Shown here one piece after another: positions 5,378-40,595 of a DNA stretch of 64,000 nt. A model generated the notes under the pieces. The model saw nothing but the letters and a program-made list of their open reading frames with translations. It was not told the origin of the DNA and searched no databases. Position 1 is the first letter of the stretch. Each line of letters starts with the position of its first letter. The stretch spans positions 62,001-126,000 of the forward strand of contig NZ_AXBA01000015.1 of NCBI RefSeq assembly GCF_000473085.1, written 5' to 3'. A program made the translations under genes and the position numbers. This DNA is from Azorhizobium doebereinerae UFLA1-100 (GTDB taxonomy: Bacteria > Pseudomonadota > Alphaproteobacteria > Rhizobiales > Xanthobacteraceae).

Positions 5378-6235
5378 ATGGCGCTCCGTGCGGGCCGGCG
5401 ATTGTCGTGGTGGGGGCTGCTGGTCCCCACCGTGCTGCTCTATGCCCTGATCTTCTTCGTCCCGCTCGGGGTGCTGGTGGGGGAAAGCCTGCGGGCCGGC
5501 TCGGACGGGCCGCTCTCGGGCGTCAATTATAGTGCCTTCTTCAGCGACGGCGTGACCCTGGGCATCTTCCTGCGCACCGTGCGCCTGTCGCTGCTCATCA
5601 CGCTCGCCTGCGTGCTGCTGGGCTATCCGCTGGCGCTGTTCATGCGGCGGGCGGGGCCGGCGCTGCGCCTGGTCGCGCTCGCCGTTGTGGTCTCGCCGCT
5701 GCTCACCAGCGTCGTGGTGCGCAACGTCGCCTGGCTGCTGGTGCTGGGGCGGGAAGGCATGGTGAACACGCTGCTGCGCCAGGCCGGACTGATCGATGCC
5801 CCCTTGCCGCTGCTCTACAACACCTTCGGCGTTGTGGTCGGCGTCACCCACGTCTACCTCGCCTTCCTGGTGATGCCGGTGTTCTCCTCTCTCCTGTCCA
5901 TCGACCCGTCCCTGGAGGATGCCGCCGCCAGCCTCGGCGCGTCGCGCACCACGGTGTTCTGGCGGGTGACCCTGCCGCTGAGCTTTCCCGGCCTGATCGC
6001 CGGGACGACGCTGGTGTTCGTCCTGTCCATGGGCGTCTACCTGACGCCGGTGATCATGGGCGGCAGCTTCGTCACCACCTTGCCCATGGTGATGACCGAT
6101 CTGGTGCGCAACCAGTTCGACTGGCCCCGGGCGGCGGCGTTCGCCATCGTCCTGCTGGCCTTCATCGCCTTGGTTCTGGGCCTGTCCAGCCGGGCGGAAC
6201 GACGGATCGAGCGCATGCGCGGGGAGGGGATGTGA
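5378..6235 (+). CDS. ABC transporter permease, polyamine type (PotB-like), second set
   Basis: A 285-residue inner-membrane permease with six predicted helices and the coupling loop LEDAAASLGASRTTVFWRVT. It starts at ATG 5378 shortly after the binding-protein stop. Its end overlaps the following permease. It is similar in architecture to the gene at 2-700, so this locus holds two PotBC-type pairs. Confidence 0.92.
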   Translation: MALRAGRRLSWWGLLVPTVLLYALIFFVPLGVLVGESLRAGSDGPLSGVNYSAFFSDGVTLGIFLRTVRLSLLITLACVLLGYPLALFMRRAGPALRLVALAVVVSPLLTSVVVRNVAWLLVLGREGMVNTLLRQAGLIDAPLPLLYNTFGVVVGVTHVYLAFLVMPVFSSLLSIDPSLEDAAASLGASRTTVFWRVTLPLSFPGLIAGTTLVFVLSMGVYLTPVIMGGSFVTTLPMVMTDLVRNQFDWPRAAAFAIVLLAFIALVLGLSSRAERRIERMRGEGM

Positions 6236-7035
6236 TGCCGGATAACAAACGGCCGCTCGGCCTCATCGTCAGCGTGGTCGCGGTGCTCGTGATGGCGTTC
6301 CTGATCCTGCCCCAGCTCATCCTGCTGGTGCAGTCGTTCACGGCGGAGGATTACCTGTCCTTTCCGCCGCGGGCCTATGGCCTGCGCTGGTATGCCTTCA
6401 TCTTCGAGGACCCCACCTGGCGCAAGGCGCTGGGCACCAGCCTGCTGGTGGCCGGGGTGGTGACGCCGCTGGCGCTGGTCTTCGGTACCGCCGCCGCCAT
6501 CGGCCTCGATCGCGGGCCGGTGCTGGTGCGCAAGGCCATGCGCACCGCTCTCGTCTCGCCCATGGTCCTGCCCCATGTGGTGCTGGGCATGGCCATCTAC
6601 CGCGTGTTCCTGCCGCTGCGCTTCGACGACACGCTGGGCGGCTTTATGGCTGCCCATCTGGTGCTCTGCATCCCTTATGTGATCGTGACCGTGGGGGCGA
6701 GTCTCCAGGCGTTCGACCGCACGCTGGAGCAGGCGGCCGCCAGCCTCGGCGCGCCGCTTGGCGTGGCGCTGTGGCGGGTGACGCTGCCGCTGATCCGCCC
6801 GGGCATCGTCGGCGGCGCGGTGTTCGCCTTCATCACCTCGTTCGACGAATTCATCGTCACCTACTTCCTGGCGAGCCGGCAGACCACCGCGCCGATCCAG
6901 ATCTTCTCCAGCCTGTCCTACCAGCTGGAGCCGTCCATCGCGGCGGTCTCCGGGCTGACCCTCGTCATCACCGCCGCCCTTTCGGGCGTGCTCATCCTCC
7001 GAGGCGGGATGACGGGGAAGGGCGCCATCGCCTGA
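6235..7035 (+). CDS. ABC transporter permease, polyamine type (PotC-like), second set
   Basis: A 266-residue inner-membrane permease whose coupling loop reads LEQAAASLGAPLGVALWRVT. ATG 6235 overlaps the upstream TGA by one base; a GTG at 6232 is an alternative start three bases earlier. It ends the importer operon: the next gene is a regulator 146 nt away. No ATPase follows, so the ATPase at 1536 is the obvious partner. Confidence 0.9.
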   Translation: MPDNKRPLGLIVSVVAVLVMAFLILPQLILLVQSFTAEDYLSFPPRAYGLRWYAFIFEDPTWRKALGTSLLVAGVVTPLALVFGTAAAIGLDRGPVLVRKAMRTALVSPMVLPHVVLGMAIYRVFLPLRFDDTLGGFMAAHLVLCIPYVIVTVGASLQAFDRTLEQAAASLGAPLGVALWRVTLPLIRPGIVGGAVFAFITSFDEFIVTYFLASRQTTAPIQIFSSLSYQLEPSIAAVSGLTLVITAALSGVLILRGGMTGKGAIA

Positions 7036-23816: not shown

Positions 23817-25046
23817 TCAGGCGCGGATCTTGTACAGGGCGACGTCGATCACCCCAGACCGGAAGCCGCCCTCGCAATAGGCGAGGTAATAGTCCCACAG
23901 CCGGCGGAAGGTGGCGTTGAAGCCGAGGCGTTCCACCTCCGGCCAGGCGGCGTGGAACCGCCGCCGCCATTCAGCCAGGGTCAGCGCATAGCTGGCGCCG
24001 AACGGCTCGACCGCCTCCAGGCGCAGTCCCGCCCGTGCCACCTGCTCGGCCATGATCGCCTTGGTCGGCAGCATGCCGCCGGGAAAGACGTAGTGCTGGA
24101 TGAAGTCCGGACTGATGCGATAGTCCTCGTAGCGCGCCTCGTCGATGGTGATGACCTGGAGCACGGCCACGCCGCCGGGGGCGAGGCGGGCCTTCAGCGT
24201 CTCGAAATAGGCCGGCCAGTATTGCTCGCCCACCGCCTCCAGCATCTCGATGGAGACGATGCGGTCGAAGGTGCCATCCACGTCGCGATAATCCTGCAAC
24301 CGCAGGTCCACGCGCTCCGCGAGGCCCTGCTCGGCCACCAGCGCGCGGGCATAGGCGAGCTGCTCCTGCGATAGGGTGAGCCCGGTCACATGGGCCCCCG
24401 CGCGGGCGAGGCGGCTGGCGAGCGCGCCCCAGCCGCAGCCGATCTCCAGCACCCGCTGCGACCCGCCGCCGAGCTCCAGCAACTCGGCGATGCGCGTGAG
24501 CTTGGCCTGCTGGGCGTCCTCCAGCGACTGGTCCGGCGCGGCGTAGAGCGCGCTGGAATAGGTCATGCTGGGGTCGAGCCACAGGCGGTAGAAGTCGTTG
24601 CCCAGATCGTAATGGAAGGCGATGTTGCGGCGGCTGCCGGCCTTGGTGTTGGCCTTCAGGGCGTGGCCGATGCGGCGGAACAGGCGCACCGGCAGCGAGC
24701 CGCCGAACGCCTCCTCCAGCCGCGCCACGTTGGCCCCCGCCAGTTCGATCAGCGCCGCCACGTCCGGGCTGGTCCATTCCTGCGCCATGTAGGCTTCCGC
24801 GAAGCCCACTCCGCCGCGCGCCGCGAAGCGGCGGAACGCCCGCCAGTCATGGATCGCCAGCGTCGCCTCGGGGCCGGGGCGCGCGGTGCGGTGCTCCAGG
24901 CGGGCGCCGGAGGGAAACACCACCGTCAGGCTGCCACTTTCCAGCCGCGACAGCAGGCGCTTGAGGACGTAGGGACCGATGCCCCGCGCCATCCGGCCGC
25001 TGGGCTCGGACACCTCGACATGGCGGCTGTCGCTGTTGACGGACAT
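23817..25046 (-). CDS. Cyclopropane-fatty-acyl-phospholipid synthase family methyltransferase
   Basis: A 409-residue SAM-dependent enzyme of the Cfa family. The SAM site is VLEIGCGWGALASRLA, and family motifs NIAFHYDLGNDFY and MTYSSALY are present. Such enzymes add a methylene to double bonds of membrane phospholipids; close relatives make the methylated precursors of furan fatty acids. It is the last gene of the operon FAD oxidoreductase-DUF1365-Cfa, which is read from an ECF-like promoter at 27266-27295. In Rhodobacter, relatives are induced by singlet oxygen through RpoE/ChrR. Confidence 0.92.
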   Translation of the reverse strand: MSVNSDSRHVEVSEPSGRMARGIGPYVLKRLLSRLESGSLTVVFPSGARLEHRTARPGPEATLAIHDWRAFRRFAARGGVGFAEAYMAQEWTSPDVAALIELAGANVARLEEAFGGSLPVRLFRRIGHALKANTKAGSRRNIAFHYDLGNDFYRLWLDPSMTYSSALYAAPDQSLEDAQQAKLTRIAELLELGGGSQRVLEIGCGWGALASRLARAGAHVTGLTLSQEQLAYARALVAEQGLAERVDLRLQDYRDVDGTFDRIVSIEMLEAVGEQYWPAYFETLKARLAPGGVAVLQVITIDEARYEDYRISPDFIQHYVFPGGMLPTKAIMAEQVARAGLRLEAVEPFGASYALTLAEWRRRFHAAWPEVERLGFNATFRRLWDYYLAYCEGGFRSGVIDVALYKIRA

Positions 25047-25059
25047 ACTGTCAGACCTC

Positions 25060-25842
25060 CTAGGTCTCGGGACGGGAAATGGTCACCGGGTGATCGGGTG
25101 GGGCAGGGCGGCGGCGCAGGCCGATTCCCTTCAGGAACAAGCGTAGCGCCTCCCAATGGATACCGCCGATAACCTTCAGCGTCAGCAGGGGAAACGCGAG
25201 GAAGGCGCGGGCCAGCGCGCGGTCGGACAATTCGGCGCGGGTGGAGGCCAGCGCGGCGGAGAGCAGCAGCCCGTCCCGGTCGCGCACCGCGATGGCGATG
25301 CCCACGCGCCCGCCCGGCGGCACCACGCGGAAGCTGTAGGTCAGCCCCATGTCCAGGAAGGGCGAGACGTAGAAGCATTTGGCCGTGGTCTGGCGGATGG
25401 GCACGGCGTCGGGGTCGCCGACCGGGATGAGATAGCCGTGCCGCTCGCCGAACGTGTTGCTCACCTCATAGAGGATGGCCTGGAGCGCGCCGTCGCGGCG
25501 ATGGCAGAAATAGACGCTGAGCGGATTGAACGCATAGCCGAGGATGCGCGGCATGGTCAGCAGACGGATCGCGCCGCCCGCGGCCTCCAGCCCGGCGGCG
25601 CGCAGGTGCGCCTCCACCTGCCCGCGCAGCGGCGCGCCGGAACGGTCGCCATAATCGGCGTCGCGGAAGGAGAACAGGTTGAAGCGGTTGCGCGAGAACA
25701 GCCGCAGCCGGGCGGCGAGGCCGTCGATCTCGTCGAGATCGAGCAGCAGCGAGAACATGCGGTAATTGAGCCGGTGCACACGCGGCCGCAGCCGGTGGTG
25801 GATGACCGCGCCCGCATAGAGCGCGGAGGCGGCGCCGGTCAT
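25060..25842 (-). CDS. DUF1365 family protein
   Basis: A 260-residue protein of the DUF1365 family. It begins SALYAGAVIHHRLRP and carries the conserved FNPLSVYFCH. The family almost always sits between an FAD-dependent oxidoreductase and a Cfa-type methyltransferase, as here. The start overlaps the upstream stop (25839-25842). No reaction is established; a role in modifying membrane fatty acids is inferred from context. Confidence 0.9.
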   Translation of the reverse strand: MTGAASALYAGAVIHHRLRPRVHRLNYRMFSLLLDLDEIDGLAARLRLFSRNRFNLFSFRDADYGDRSGAPLRGQVEAHLRAAGLEAAGGAIRLLTMPRILGYAFNPLSVYFCHRRDGALQAILYEVSNTFGERHGYLIPVGDPDAVPIRQTTAKCFYVSPFLDMGLTYSFRVVPPGGRVGIAIAVRDRDGLLLSAALASTRAELSDRALARAFLAFPLLTLKVIGGIHWEALRLFLKGIGLRRRPAPPDHPVTISRPET

Positions 25843-27194
25843 GCCAGCGGCTCCAGCGCGCGGGCGGGGGCTGCGGGCGGCGGGAGCGAGATGCGCCCGG
25901 ATTCGTCCCGCACCCGCCAGGGCCGGCGCACGCCGCCGAGCGCCTCGGCGACCGCAAGGCCCGCCTGGAGGCCGTCCTCGTGGAAGCCGGCGCCGAAATG
26001 GGCGCCGCAATACCAGGTGTTGCGCACCCCCTGGAGCGACCACAGGCGCTTCTGCGCGGCGAGGGCGGCGCTGTTGAACATGAGGTGCGCATAGTCGCCC
26101 CGGTGCAGCACCGACGCCGGTTCCGGCTCGTGCGCCGGGTTCAGGGTCACGAACAGCGGCGTCGCGTCCGGGAGGCCCTGGAGGCGGTTCATCCAGTAGG
26201 TCACCGACAGCAGCTTGTGGTCGCCCTGGGTCTGCGACAGGTAGTTCCAGCTCGACCAGACGTTGCGGCGCTTCGGCATCAGCGTCGGGTCGCCGTGCAG
26301 GATCGCTTCGTTGCCGGTGTAGCGGAAGGCGCCCAGCAGACCGCGCTCGGCCGGCGTCGGGTCGCTCAGCATGCGCAGCGCCTGGTCCGCATGGGTGGCG
26401 ATGACCACATGGTCGAACCGCTGCGTCGTGCCGGCGCCGTCCACCAGCTCCACCATCCCCGCCGCCCGCCGCACCGCGCGCACCGGGCGGTTCAGCTGGA
26501 TGCGGTCGGCGAACGGCCGGGTGATCCGCTCCACATAGGCGCGGCTGCCGCCCGCCACGGTGCGCCAGACCGGCCGGTCGCGGATCTGGAGCAGGCCGTG
26601 ATTGACGCAGAAGCGGATGAAGGCCGCCGCCGGATAGCTGCCGATGGCCGCCGCCGGCGTGGACCAGATCGCCGCCGCCATGGGGTAGAGATGGTCGTCG
26701 CGGAACGCCTTGCCGTAGCCCTCGGCGAACAGATAGTCGTCGAGCGTGGTCTCCTCCAACTGGCCGGCATGGGCCGGGGCCTCGCGGTAGAAGCGGGCGA
26801 GGTCGCGCAGCATCCGCCAGAAGCGCGGGCTCGCGAGGTTGCGCCGCTGGGCGAACAGGCTGGCGAGGCCGTCGCCGGAATATTCCAGCCGCCCGCCGTC
26901 CAGCGATACGCCCAGCGACATGTTCGAGGCCTTGGTCGGCACGCCGAGATGGGCGAACAGCGCCGTCAAATTGGGGTAGGTGGCTTCGTTATAGACGATG
27001 AAGCCGGTGTCCACCGGCCCGGCGGCGGTGTCCACCGTGTGGCTGTGGCCGCCGACGCGGGCGTCCGCCTCGAACAGCGTCACCTCGTGGCGCTGCGCCA
27101 GCAGCCAGGCGGCGGCGAGGCCCGAGATGCCGCTGCCGACCACCGCGACGCGCAGAACGGGGCCGGTCGGCACCGGGAAGGACGCCAAGGTCAT
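25839..27194 (-). CDS. FAD-dependent oxidoreductase (amine-oxidase/desaturase-like)
   Basis: A 451-residue flavoprotein with an N-terminal FAD-binding Rossmann motif GSGISGLAAAW (about residues 20-30) and GGHSHTVD shortly after. It is the first gene of the Cfa operon. ATG 27194 has an AGAAGG site 7 nt upstream; the longer GTG start at 27227 has none. Relatives are in the singlet-oxygen regulon of Rhodobacter and are implicated in fatty acid modification. The exact reaction here is unknown. Confidence 0.9.
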   Translation of the reverse strand: MTLASFPVPTGPVLRVAVVGSGISGLAAAWLLAQRHEVTLFEADARVGGHSHTVDTAAGPVDTGFIVYNEATYPNLTALFAHLGVPTKASNMSLGVSLDGGRLEYSGDGLASLFAQRRNLASPRFWRMLRDLARFYREAPAHAGQLEETTLDDYLFAEGYGKAFRDDHLYPMAAAIWSTPAAAIGSYPAAAFIRFCVNHGLLQIRDRPVWRTVAGGSRAYVERITRPFADRIQLNRPVRAVRRAAGMVELVDGAGTTQRFDHVVIATHADQALRMLSDPTPAERGLLGAFRYTGNEAILHGDPTLMPKRRNVWSSWNYLSQTQGDHKLLSVTYWMNRLQGLPDATPLFVTLNPAHEPEPASVLHRGDYAHLMFNSAALAAQKRLWSLQGVRNTWYCGAHFGAGFHEDGLQAGLAVAEALGGVRRPWRVRDESGRISLPPPAAPARALEPLA

Positions 27195-27265
27195 GCCACA
27201 GCCTTCTGATGTGAAGAACGCTTCCACCCGGACGGGCGGGGCCGGCGATGCAACGGCCTCGCATC

Positions 27266-27295
27266 ATCCTACGGCACCATGCCGCGCGCGGATCA
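27266..27295 (-). promoter_or_regulatory. Candidate ECF (RpoE/ChrR-type) promoter for the FAD oxidoreductase-DUF1365-Cfa operon
   Basis: On the minus strand, TGATCC (27295-27290) and TAGGAT (27271-27266) are separated by exactly 18 bp. The Rhodobacter RpoE consensus that I remember is TGATCC-N18-TAAGA. Transcription would start about 65 nt before ATG 27194. Confidence 0.7.
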
Positions 27296-27309
27296 CCTGT
27301 GCCCGGCTT

Positions 27310-27339
27310 TGATCCAGCGGCAGTGCGGCTGCGTAAGAA
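27310..27339 (+). promoter_or_regulatory. Candidate ECF (RpoE/ChrR-type) promoter for chrR
   Basis: TGATCC (27310-27315) and TAAGAA (27334-27339) are separated by exactly 18 bp, a full match to the RpoE consensus as I know it. The expected start site is near 27346, which supports ATG 27400 as the start of chrR over a GTG at 27343. Confidence 0.8.
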
Positions 27340-27399: not shown

Positions 27400-28080
27400 A
27401 TGCAGCAGCAGGCCAGAACGGCGGGCGAGACCGCGCCGCGCCGTCATCATCCGAGCGAGGAGACCCTCCTGGCCTATGCCGCCGGCAGCCTCGCGGCGGG
27501 ACCTGCGGTGGTGACGGAGAGCCACCTTGCCCTGTGCGCGCCGTGCCGCGCCCGGCTCGCCGCCTTCCGCGCCGCCGGCGGGGCGATCCTCGACGCGCTC
27601 CCGCCCACCCCCTTGGCGGGCGAGGCGCTCGAACATTGCGCCGCGCTTGCCGCCTTGCCGGCCCCGGCCCGGCCCGCCCGGCGGCTCCCGCGCCGCCAGC
27701 CGCGCGACATCGTCCTGCCGGCCTCGCTGAAGGCCTATGAGTTCGGCCGCTGGATGTGGCTGGGCCCGGGGGTGCGCTCCTGCCGCATCATCGTCCCCGC
27801 CCAGCCCCGCGCCACCGCCCGCCTGCTGCGCATCGCCCCCGGATGCAAGATCCCCGAGCACGGCCACAGCGGCGCGGAATTCACCCTGGTGCTGCACGGC
27901 TCCTTCTGCGACGGCCACGACCGCTTCCTGCCGGGCGACTTCTCCGAGGCGGACGGCGAGGTGGACCACCAGCCGATCAGCGATCCCGGCGTGGACTGCA
28001 TCTGCGTCACCGCGCTGGAGGGGCGCATGCGCTTCCACGGCCTGCTGGGGCGCCTGACGGCGCCGTTCGGCGGGCTGTGA
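27400..28080 (+). CDS. chrR: ChrR-type zinc anti-sigma factor (ASD plus cupin domains)
   Basis: A 226-residue anti-sigma factor that holds an RpoE-type ECF sigma until singlet oxygen triggers release. The N-terminal zinc site has the exact ChrR spacing: H17, H42, C46 and C49 (SHLALCAPC). The C-terminal cupin carries EHGHSGAEFTLVL with metal ligands, then a later His (VDHQP) and the conserved DCIC. ChrR is normally encoded directly behind its sigma gene. Here the region upstream holds only divergent promoters, so the sigma must be encoded elsewhere. The gene lies inside what looks like its own regulon and is followed by DUF1295. Confidence 0.92.
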   Translation: MQQQARTAGETAPRRHHPSEETLLAYAAGSLAAGPAVVTESHLALCAPCRARLAAFRAAGGAILDALPPTPLAGEALEHCAALAALPAPARPARRLPRRQPRDIVLPASLKAYEFGRWMWLGPGVRSCRIIVPAQPRATARLLRIAPGCKIPEHGHSGAEFTLVLHGSFCDGHDRFLPGDFSEADGEVDHQPISDPGVDCICVTALEGRMRFHGLLGRLTAPFGGL

Positions 28081-28102: not shown

Positions 28103-28921
28103 ATGACCTATCCGCTGCTGATCCTGCTGCTGGCGCTCGCCCTCTCCCTCGCCATGGCGGCGGCCTGGGCGGTGGCGCTGGCGAGCGGCCGCTCCGGCTG
28201 GATCGACAGCATCTGGAGCTTCGCCCTGGGCGCCGCCGGGCTCGCCGCCGCGCTGGCGCCGGTGGCGGGGGCGGGGCCGATGACGGAACGCCAGCTGCTG
28301 GTCGCCGCCCTGGTGGCGCTGTGGTCGCTGCGGCTCGGCCTGCACATCGCCCGCCGCACCCATGGCGGGGGCGACGACCCGCGCTATGCGCACCTGCGCG
28401 CCACATGGGGCGCGCAGGCGCGCAGCCAGCTGTTCCTGTTCCTCCAGGTCCAGGCGGCGAGCGCGGTCCTGCTGGCGCTGAGCATCCTCGCGGCGGCGCG
28501 CAACCCCGCGCCCGGCCTCGGGCCGTTCGACGCCGCCGGCACCCTCATCCTGCTGGCCGCGATCCTCGGCGAGGGCCTCGCCGATCGCCAGCTCGCCCGT
28601 TTCCGGGCCGATCCCGCCCGGCGCGGGCAGGTGTGCGACACCGGCCTGTGGGCCTGGTCCCGCCACCCCAACTATGTCTTCCAGTGGCTCGGCTGGCTGG
28701 GCTATGCGGCGATCGCGCTCCAGGGCCTCGCACACTATCCCTACGGGCTCGTCGCCCTGTCCGGCCCGGCCTTCATGTATGTGCTGCTGGTGCATGTCTC
28801 CGGCATTCCGCCGCTGGAGGCGCACATGCTGCGCGCGCGGGGCGATGCGTTCCGCGCCTATCAGGCCCGGGTCAACGCCTTCTTCCCCGGTCCGCCCCGT
28901 CAGCCGGGCAGCAGCCGATGA
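28103..28921 (+). CDS. DUF1295 family integral membrane protein (steroid 5-alpha-reductase-like)
   Basis: A 272-residue membrane protein with several predicted helices. The C-terminal half has the methyltransferase/reductase signature WSRHPNYVFQWLGWLGY, shared with isoprenylcysteine methyltransferases and steroid 5-alpha-reductases. It starts 22 nt after chrR and is probably co-transcribed. The family often occurs next to Cfa, DUF1365 and the FAD oxidoreductase. A lipid substrate is inferred. Its end overlaps the convergent DUF2177 gene by 22 nt. Confidence 0.88.
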   Translation: MTYPLLILLLALALSLAMAAAWAVALASGRSGWIDSIWSFALGAAGLAAALAPVAGAGPMTERQLLVAALVALWSLRLGLHIARRTHGGGDDPRYAHLRATWGAQARSQLFLFLQVQAASAVLLALSILAAARNPAPGLGPFDAAGTLILLAAILGEGLADRQLARFRADPARRGQVCDTGLWAWSRHPNYVFQWLGWLGYAAIALQGLAHYPYGLVALSGPAFMYVLLVHVSGIPPLEAHMLRARGDAFRAYQARVNAFFPGPPRQPGSSR

Positions 28922-29316
28922 AGCGCCCGGGCGATGAGGAAGCCGAGGCTGGCGGCGGTGGCGGTCAGCGCCGTGCCCCAGGCCATGTCCACCAATGTGA
29001 GGGCCAGCGGCCAGGTCTTCAGCGTCGCCTGGTTGGTCAGGTCATAGGTGGCATAGGCGGACAGGCCGAGCAGCGCGCCGTTGAGCAGCGCCGTGGTCCA
29101 GCGGCCGCTGCCGAGGGCGGGCGCGATGGCGAACACCACGATTCCGGCCACATAGATCAGATAGAAGGCGACAGCCGGTGCCGGCCGGAACGCCTCCAGC
29201 ACCATGTCGCCCATCAGCGGCTTGTAGAAGCGCGCGCCCATGACGGTGAGCCAGAGCGCGTCGGCGGCGAGGAACACGACGGCCGTCGCGGCATAAGCGA
29301 GCGCATAGATGCCCAT
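28900..29316 (-). CDS. DUF2177 family membrane protein
   Basis: A 138-residue protein with four predicted transmembrane helices. Family signatures ADALWLTVMG and ATYDLTNQATLK are visible. ATG 29316 has a strong AAGGAGGA site. The gene is convergent with DUF1295. A candidate ECF promoter lies just upstream (29354-29383). The function of the family is unknown; it is commonly linked to photolyase and lipid-stress genes. Confidence 0.88.
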   Translation of the reverse strand: MGIYALAYAATAVVFLAADALWLTVMGARFYKPLMGDMVLEAFRPAPAVAFYLIYVAGIVVFAIAPALGSGRWTTALLNGALLGLSAYATYDLTNQATLKTWPLALTLVDMAWGTALTATAASLGFLIARALHRLLPG

Positions 29317-29353: not shown

Positions 29354-29383
29354 TTGGTACGGCGCCGCGCGCCTTGCGGATCA
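29354..29383 (-). promoter_or_regulatory. Candidate ECF (RpoE/ChrR-type) promoter for the DUF2177 gene
   Basis: On the minus strand, TGATCC (29383-29378) and TACCAA (29359-29354) are separated by 18 bp. The -10 part is weaker than in the other two sites. The implied leader of about 30 nt contains the AAGGAGGA ribosome site. Confidence 0.55.
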
Positions 29384-40001: not shown

Positions 40002-40595
40002 CTAGCTCCCATCTGCCGGAGGCGCGAGGCGGGCCCGCAGGGCCTTGCGGGCGCGGACCAGCAGGGTCTCGACCCCGCCCACCGTGGTGCCCAGCACCTC
40101 GGCGGCGCGGCTGTTGGACAGTCCTTCCCAATAGGTGAGCAGCACCACGGCGCGCTGCCGGTCGGGCAAGGCGGTGATGGCCGCCGTGAGCCGGGCGCGC
40201 TCGTGCCGCGCCACCAGTTCGGCTTCGGCGTCGGGCCCGGGGTCGGCCGGATCACCCGCCTCGTCGAGCGCGGCATGGGGCACACGGCGGCGGTGGTTGA
40301 GGCAGAGATTGACGACGATGCGGTGGAACCAGGTGCGGAAGCTGGCCGTGGGCTGCCAGCGGGGCGCCGCGCGCCAAACCCGCAGGAAGGCTTCCTGGGC
40401 CACCTCCTCGGCGTCGGCATCGCTGCCGAGATAGCGCCGCGCGAGGGCGGCCGCGCGGGCGGCGTGCCGATCGCACAGCATGCGGAACGCCGCCTCGTTG
40501 CCGTCCGCGATGCGCGCCATGAGATCTTCGTCGCTTGGCTCTCGCATCCGCAAACTCGACGCCACATCTGGTCGCAGAATGGCACCATGGCGCAT
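40002..40595 (-). CDS. ECF-type RNA polymerase sigma factor
   Basis: A 197-residue sigma-70 family factor with region 2 (DADAEEVAQEAFLRVWRA) and region 4 (LPDRQRAVVLLTYWEGLSNS, then AAEVLGTTVGGVETLLVRAR), and no region 1. It heads the operon anti-sigma, sensor, adaptor, RND, RND. ATG 40595 has AGGAGG only one base away; ATG 40547 gives a more usual N-terminus (MREPSDEDL) and is a good alternative. It probably controls this pump and itself. Confidence 0.9.
   Translation of the reverse strand: MRHGAILRPDVASSLRMREPSDEDLMARIADGNEAAFRMLCDRHAARAAALARRYLGSDADAEEVAQEAFLRVWRAAPRWQPTASFRTWFHRIVVNLCLNHRRRVPHAALDEAGDPADPGPDAEAELVARHERARLTAAITALPDRQRAVVLLTYWEGLSNSRAAEVLGTTVGGVETLLVRARKALRARLAPPADGS

Follow-up and report, generated by a model that had tools for sequence, protein, structure and literature searches.

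Divergent ECF11-type promoters at a ufa-like locus of Azorhizobium doebereinerae, with an orphan chrR and an apparent loss of rpoE

In Rhodobacter sphaeroides, the anti-sigma factor ChrR holds sigma-E (RpoE), and singlet oxygen leads to the loss of ChrR, after which sigma-E transcribes its targets (PMC6852236). The ufa genes are among these targets; their products UfaD, UfaO and UfaM make furan fatty acids (PMC7380195, PMC6852236), and the furan fatty acids help to trigger the turnover of ChrR (PMC6852236). The published R. sphaeroides RpoE promoter has the form TGATCC(N15)GCGTA (PMC5036791). The promoters of PSPTO_1043 in Pseudomonas syringae, found by ChIP-Seq, and the mapped promoters in Shewanella are of the TGATCC/CGTA form too (PMC5507510 and PMC4336711, cited jointly for the two organisms).

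The window studied here, a stretch of 64,000 nucleotides from A. doebereinerae, has a 205-bp intergenic gap with two sites of this kind on opposite strands. A sequence-only reading of the window had singled them out as a divergent pair of RpoE/ChrR-type promoters, TGATCC-N18-TAAGAA on the plus strand (27310-27339) and TGATCC-N18-TAGGAT on the minus strand (27295-27266), the TGATCC boxes being 14 bp apart; the positions, the common 18-bp spacing and the distance between the boxes are all as it had described them. Its motif held for the TGATCC box and the spacing, but not for the letters that follow TA in the second hexamer (AGAA and GGAT). Relatives do not share these letters; what they conserve is a CGTA core that always lies 16 bp from TGATCC. 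On the sequences compared, TGATCC-N16-CGTA describes both sites better than N18-TARGRW does. The ECF11-type promoter facing chrR (27310..27339, plus strand) has its -35 element TGATCC at 27310-27315 and, after N16, its -10 core CGTA at 27332-27335; the one facing a ufaD-ufaO-ufaM-like operon (27266..27295, minus strand) has TGATCC at 27295-27290 and, again after N16, CGTA at 27273-27270. The -35 TGATCC, the -10 core CGTA and the 16-bp spacing of an ECF11 promoter are therefore present exactly on both strands. With one more base included, the plus-strand site reads TGATCC-N15-GCGTA and the minus-strand site TGATCC-N15-CCGTA. The promoter class proposed in the sequence-only reading stands as well, since the sites match the R. 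sphaeroides TGATCC(N15)GCGTA promoter (PMC5036791) and relatives have kept them at either side of the gap.

The genome-wide scan suggested along with the original bipartite motif was run over 5,809,153 bp in 104 contigs, and TGATCC-N18-TARGRW has two perfect matches, exactly this pair. Because base composition alone would permit a few matches in the genome, the weight of this result lies in the joint position of the two sites in one 205-bp gap. The form with the conserved core, TGATCC-N16-CGTA, has six perfect sites in the genome, three of which fall in the window, in a stretch of about 2.1 kb. When the intergenic gap was put through 20,000 dinucleotide shuffles, TGATCC-N16-CGTA turned up on one strand or the other in 4, and on both strands in none. 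A chance origin of the pair is rejected on the strength of these shuffles together with the conservation of the sites in relatives.

This conservation was followed in named genomes, at 70 loci that encode a related ChrR, and in 20 larger stretches from further genomes, mostly relatives. For the 59 named loci with a divergent layout, gaps of 12-21 bp between TGATCN and CGTA were tried, and the gap was 16 in every one of the 102 sites found (52 forward and 50 reverse), a count to be read with the caution that the loci are not independent, many coming from related species and MAGs. Sites occur on both sides in 48 of these 59 loci, and across the divergent loci position and spacing are conserved upstream of orthologous genes. 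As an inverted repeat, the TGATCC boxes of the window could conceivably be a palindromic operator, GGATCA-N14-TGATCC, on which a dimeric regulator sits, instead of two -35 boxes. In the divergent loci of relatives, however, the distance from box to box ranges from 8 to over 100 bp, while TGATCC and CGTA stay 16 bp apart on both sides. Since the internal spacing is fixed and the box-to-box distance is free, the arrangement is that of two independent promoters; the single palindromic operator is rejected by the variable distance between the boxes, and we give it next to no credence. By their identity and conservation, the two sites are recognized at the sequence level as divergent promoters of an ECF11 sigma factor, that is, of an RpoE (sigma-E) with ChrR as its partner.

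The minus-strand promoter faces an operon of three genes on the same strand. The gene nearest to it (25839..27194, with an ATG start at 27194 and an alternative GTG at 27227) encodes a UfaD-like protein of the FAD amine-oxidase family (PF01593), its role being assigned by homology (PMC7380195). It is followed by the gene of a UfaO-like DUF1365 protein (25060..25842; PF07103, E = 1.8e-80; PMC7380195), which overlaps its 3' end, and by the gene of a UfaM-like methyltransferase of the Cfa/CMAS family (23817..25046; PF02353, E = 2.7e-83; PMC7380195). An FAD amine oxidase, a DUF1365 protein and a Cfa-type methylase are thus found together by Pfam, the combination of a furan-fatty-acid operon. The operon matches ufaD-ufaO-ufaM, and furan-fatty-acid synthesis is its predicted function by homology.

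A third perfect TGATCC-N16-CGTA site (29358..29383, minus strand) lies upstream of a gene for a DUF2177 membrane protein (28900..29316, minus strand; PF09945; start MGIYALAY), the predicted target of this promoter. A site at this place recurs in 32 of 65 loci; among random windows of similar size, drawn from those loci, 133 of 4,600 contained one. The genome's only photolyase gene (contig C31; match at 2313-2909) has TGATCC-N17-CGTA upstream, not N16; of the other two Azorhizobium genomes, one has an N16 site upstream of its photolyase gene and the other has none that is clear. To judge from these sites, the regulon of A. doebereinerae may no longer include the photolyase, and because this core target of other systems is without a perfect site here, the regulon is perhaps small or altered. 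Another Azorhizobium genome encodes a DUF3429 (PF11911) protein, and a second genus a similar protein; in both cases a perfect TGATCC-N16-CGTA site precedes the predicted start by 9-10 bp. Genes of this type are possible further ECF11 targets in those two genera; the candidate is absent from the A. doebereinerae genome.

The plus-strand promoter faces chrR (27400..28080, plus strand), which encodes an anti-sigma factor with an Hx3Cx2C zinc motif and a cupin domain. The protein belongs to the ChrR family with 204.5 bits against TIGR02451, where the cut-off is 124.5, and matches 2z2s_B with E = 3.7e-40; the zinc and cupin ligands are present. Directly 3' of chrR, and in the same place in most relatives, is the gene of a DUF1295 membrane protein (28103..28921, plus strand; PF06966) that is probably co-transcribed with chrR. 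What the locus lacks is rpoE. In relatives, the plus-side promoter drives rpoE-chrR, with rpoE between the promoter and chrR; in all three Azorhizobium genomes no rpoE is found beside chrR at the ufa/chrR locus, which is thus not a canonical rpoE-chrR operon. Among the 70 named loci, the adjacent rpoE is missing in only two, one from Azorhizobium oxalatiphilum and the other on a truncated contig. The promoters, chrR, the DUF1295 and DUF2177 genes and the ufa operon have all been retained in A. doebereinerae and in another genome of the same genus, and rpoE has not. A parsimonious reading is that rpoE was lost in Azorhizobium from between its promoter and chrR. By its place and sequence, the promoter facing chrR is then the ancestral rpoE-chrR promoter, and because rpoE is gone from the locus, it would now drive chrR alone. 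The targets named in the sequence-only reading, chrR and the FAD oxidoreductase-DUF1365-Cfa operon, were right in kind; the absent sigma gene, the ancestry of the chrR promoter and the third site had been overlooked.

The loss of rpoE raises the question of whether chrR itself is a functionless remnant in decay. The window chrR does carry an N-terminal extension of 15 residues that is not present in most relatives. No remnant of rpoE was seen in the 60-bp chrR leader when it was compared by eye with the rpoE 3' ends of relatives. But chrR is intact in three diverged species, with all its ligands and a perfect promoter, and its codon pattern is that of purifying selection, with identities of 0.69-0.78 at codon positions 1 and 2 and of 0.37-0.51 at position 3. 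We find it highly improbable that the gene is decaying.

The one ECF11-like sigma factor of the genome is encoded on another contig (C24, 29395-29970). Its match to R. sphaeroides sigma-E (2q1z_A) has E = 2.5e-46, and its region 4.2 stretch resembles that of relatives possessing the promoter. Directly behind it is a second ChrR gene (5967-6614 of the extracted C24 stretch), a placement with conserved synteny across the three Azorhizobium genomes; homology to sigma-E and an adjoining ChrR together mark the C24 RpoE as an ECF11 sigma. With about a dozen ECF-type region 4 hits in the genome, the promoters could in principle be read by another of these sigmas. The motif is the ECF11 motif, however, and the C24 sigma alone is ECF11-like, the other ECF-type hits having at most 35% identity to it; a different reader of the promoters seems to us very unlikely. 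One further ECF-type sigma gene lies in the window itself (40002-40595, minus strand), between RND efflux genes; after it come small genes, one of which, by eye, resembles a membrane-anchored metal sensor. As a candidate for the cognate sigma this gene was rejected: its product is only 35% identical to C24 RpoE over 128 residues and is therefore not ECF11-like.

The region upstream of the C24 rpoE is without the motif. In three Azorhizobium species, no TGATCC-N16-CGTA site with fewer than two mismatches was found within about 590 bp; one site with two mismatches is seen in A. doebereinerae only and is not shared. Self-induction of the C24 rpoE through TGATCC-N16-CGTA is thus not indicated in any of the three species, and the gene may be self-induced by some other, unrecognised promoter.

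The two ChrR proteins of Azorhizobium are of different kinds. In all three species, the orphan ChrR has an intact Hx3Cx2C motif, which reads ESHLALCAPC in the window, as well as the cupin ligands; in the sigma-linked ChrR both zinc cysteines are gone (ETQIELAPAV here) and the cupin ligands remain. Outside the genus, Hx3Cx2C is found in 78 of 85 ChrRs; three of the remaining seven were cut or broken in extraction, and the other four, all sigma-linked copies, have truly lost it. Zinc loss in ChrR is therefore uncommon, but not unique. In the tree, the two Azorhizobium types make up separate clades, each supported at 100/100, and both clades fall among the ECF11 ChrRs of Hyphomicrobiales with no resolved sister. 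Class I anti-sigma domains have been described as mixed groups with and without zinc, and the zinc-less ones can work (PMC7406223). This bears on a reading that accepts the sites as ECF11 promoters and denies that the orphan ChrR still acts on the ECF11 sigma; the orphan would have another sigma as its partner or be a free zinc/cupin sensor, leaving the zinc-less ChrR beside the sigma as the sole working anti-sigma. Such a reading gains from the fact that the orphan is unlinked to any sigma, while the C24 sigma keeps a ChrR adjoining it. It is weakened by the full ECF11-type ChrR layout of the orphan, which has all its ligands and an ECF11-type promoter in three species, and by the low identity of the other ECF-type sigmas to the ECF11 one. 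We consider it rather unlikely.

The explanation that we favor, and regard as probable, is that the sites are divergent ECF11 promoters, that rpoE was lost from behind one of them, and that the unlinked C24 sigma induces the ufa operon, the DUF2177 gene and the orphan ChrR, with negative feedback as the outcome. The genomes as they stand show what the promoters are and that they are conserved, that the locus has no rpoE, and that the linked ChrR has lost its zinc motif. From there, we infer that the C24 RpoE binds the orphan ChrR, that the feedback operates and that singlet oxygen induces the system. Stress would inactivate ChrR and free the sigma-E encoded on C24; the freed sigma-E would read TGATCC-N16-CGTA and switch on the furan-fatty-acid operon, DUF2177 and fresh zinc-type ChrR; and the newly made ChrR would re-capture sigma-E and shut down the response. 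The feedback through the chrR-facing promoter would then be negative, with anti-sigma made alone, as opposed to the co-induction of sigma and anti-sigma in relatives. The co-induction by photo-oxidative stress that had been predicted from the promoter pair is plausible from homology to the described systems. More tentatively, and as a possibility we would not put at even chances, the alarm may have been split in two: the zinc-less, sigma-linked ChrR, standing outside this promoter, would set the resting level, and the inducible zinc-type orphan ChrR would end the response in a stress-dependent way, so that a switch that amplifies itself has become one that limits itself.

The promoter pair is of a well-known type, and the new part is the natural rewiring, in which the sigma was lost behind its ancestral promoter and the anti-sigma was kept. 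We found no description of the Azorhizobium rewiring in the literature searched, which covered few subscription journals. The rewiring offers a way to test, in a rhizobium that can be cultivated, what sigma self-induction contributes to the singlet-oxygen response, and the natural pair of ChrRs with and without zinc lets one ask what the zinc of the anti-sigma domain does.

The likeness to the RpoE-ChrR (ECF11) regulon of R. sphaeroides is extensive, as both have the same TGATCC-N16-CGTA promoter, a regulator of the ChrR family and targets of the ufaD, ufaO and ufaM families (PMC5036791, PMC6852236, PMC7380195). There, however, rpoE and chrR form one operon, while in Azorhizobium the promoter is followed by chrR with no sigma gene, and the sigma is encoded at a different place, together with a zinc-less ChrR and with no recognised promoter for its self-induction. 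The PSPTO_1043 system of P. syringae, which is responsive to singlet oxygen, and the RpoE2-ChrR system of Shewanella share the TGATCC/CGTA promoters, established by ChIP-Seq or start mapping (PMC5507510 and PMC4336711, again cited jointly), but in both of them the sigma adjoins its anti-sigma and the sigma gene itself bears the promoter motif. The ufa operon and rpoE-chrR loci of other Hyphomicrobiales (Ancylobacter, Microvirga, Mesorhizobium and Afipia) share the gene order of Azorhizobium and its two divergent promoters, and differ from it in having kept rpoE between the promoter and chrR.
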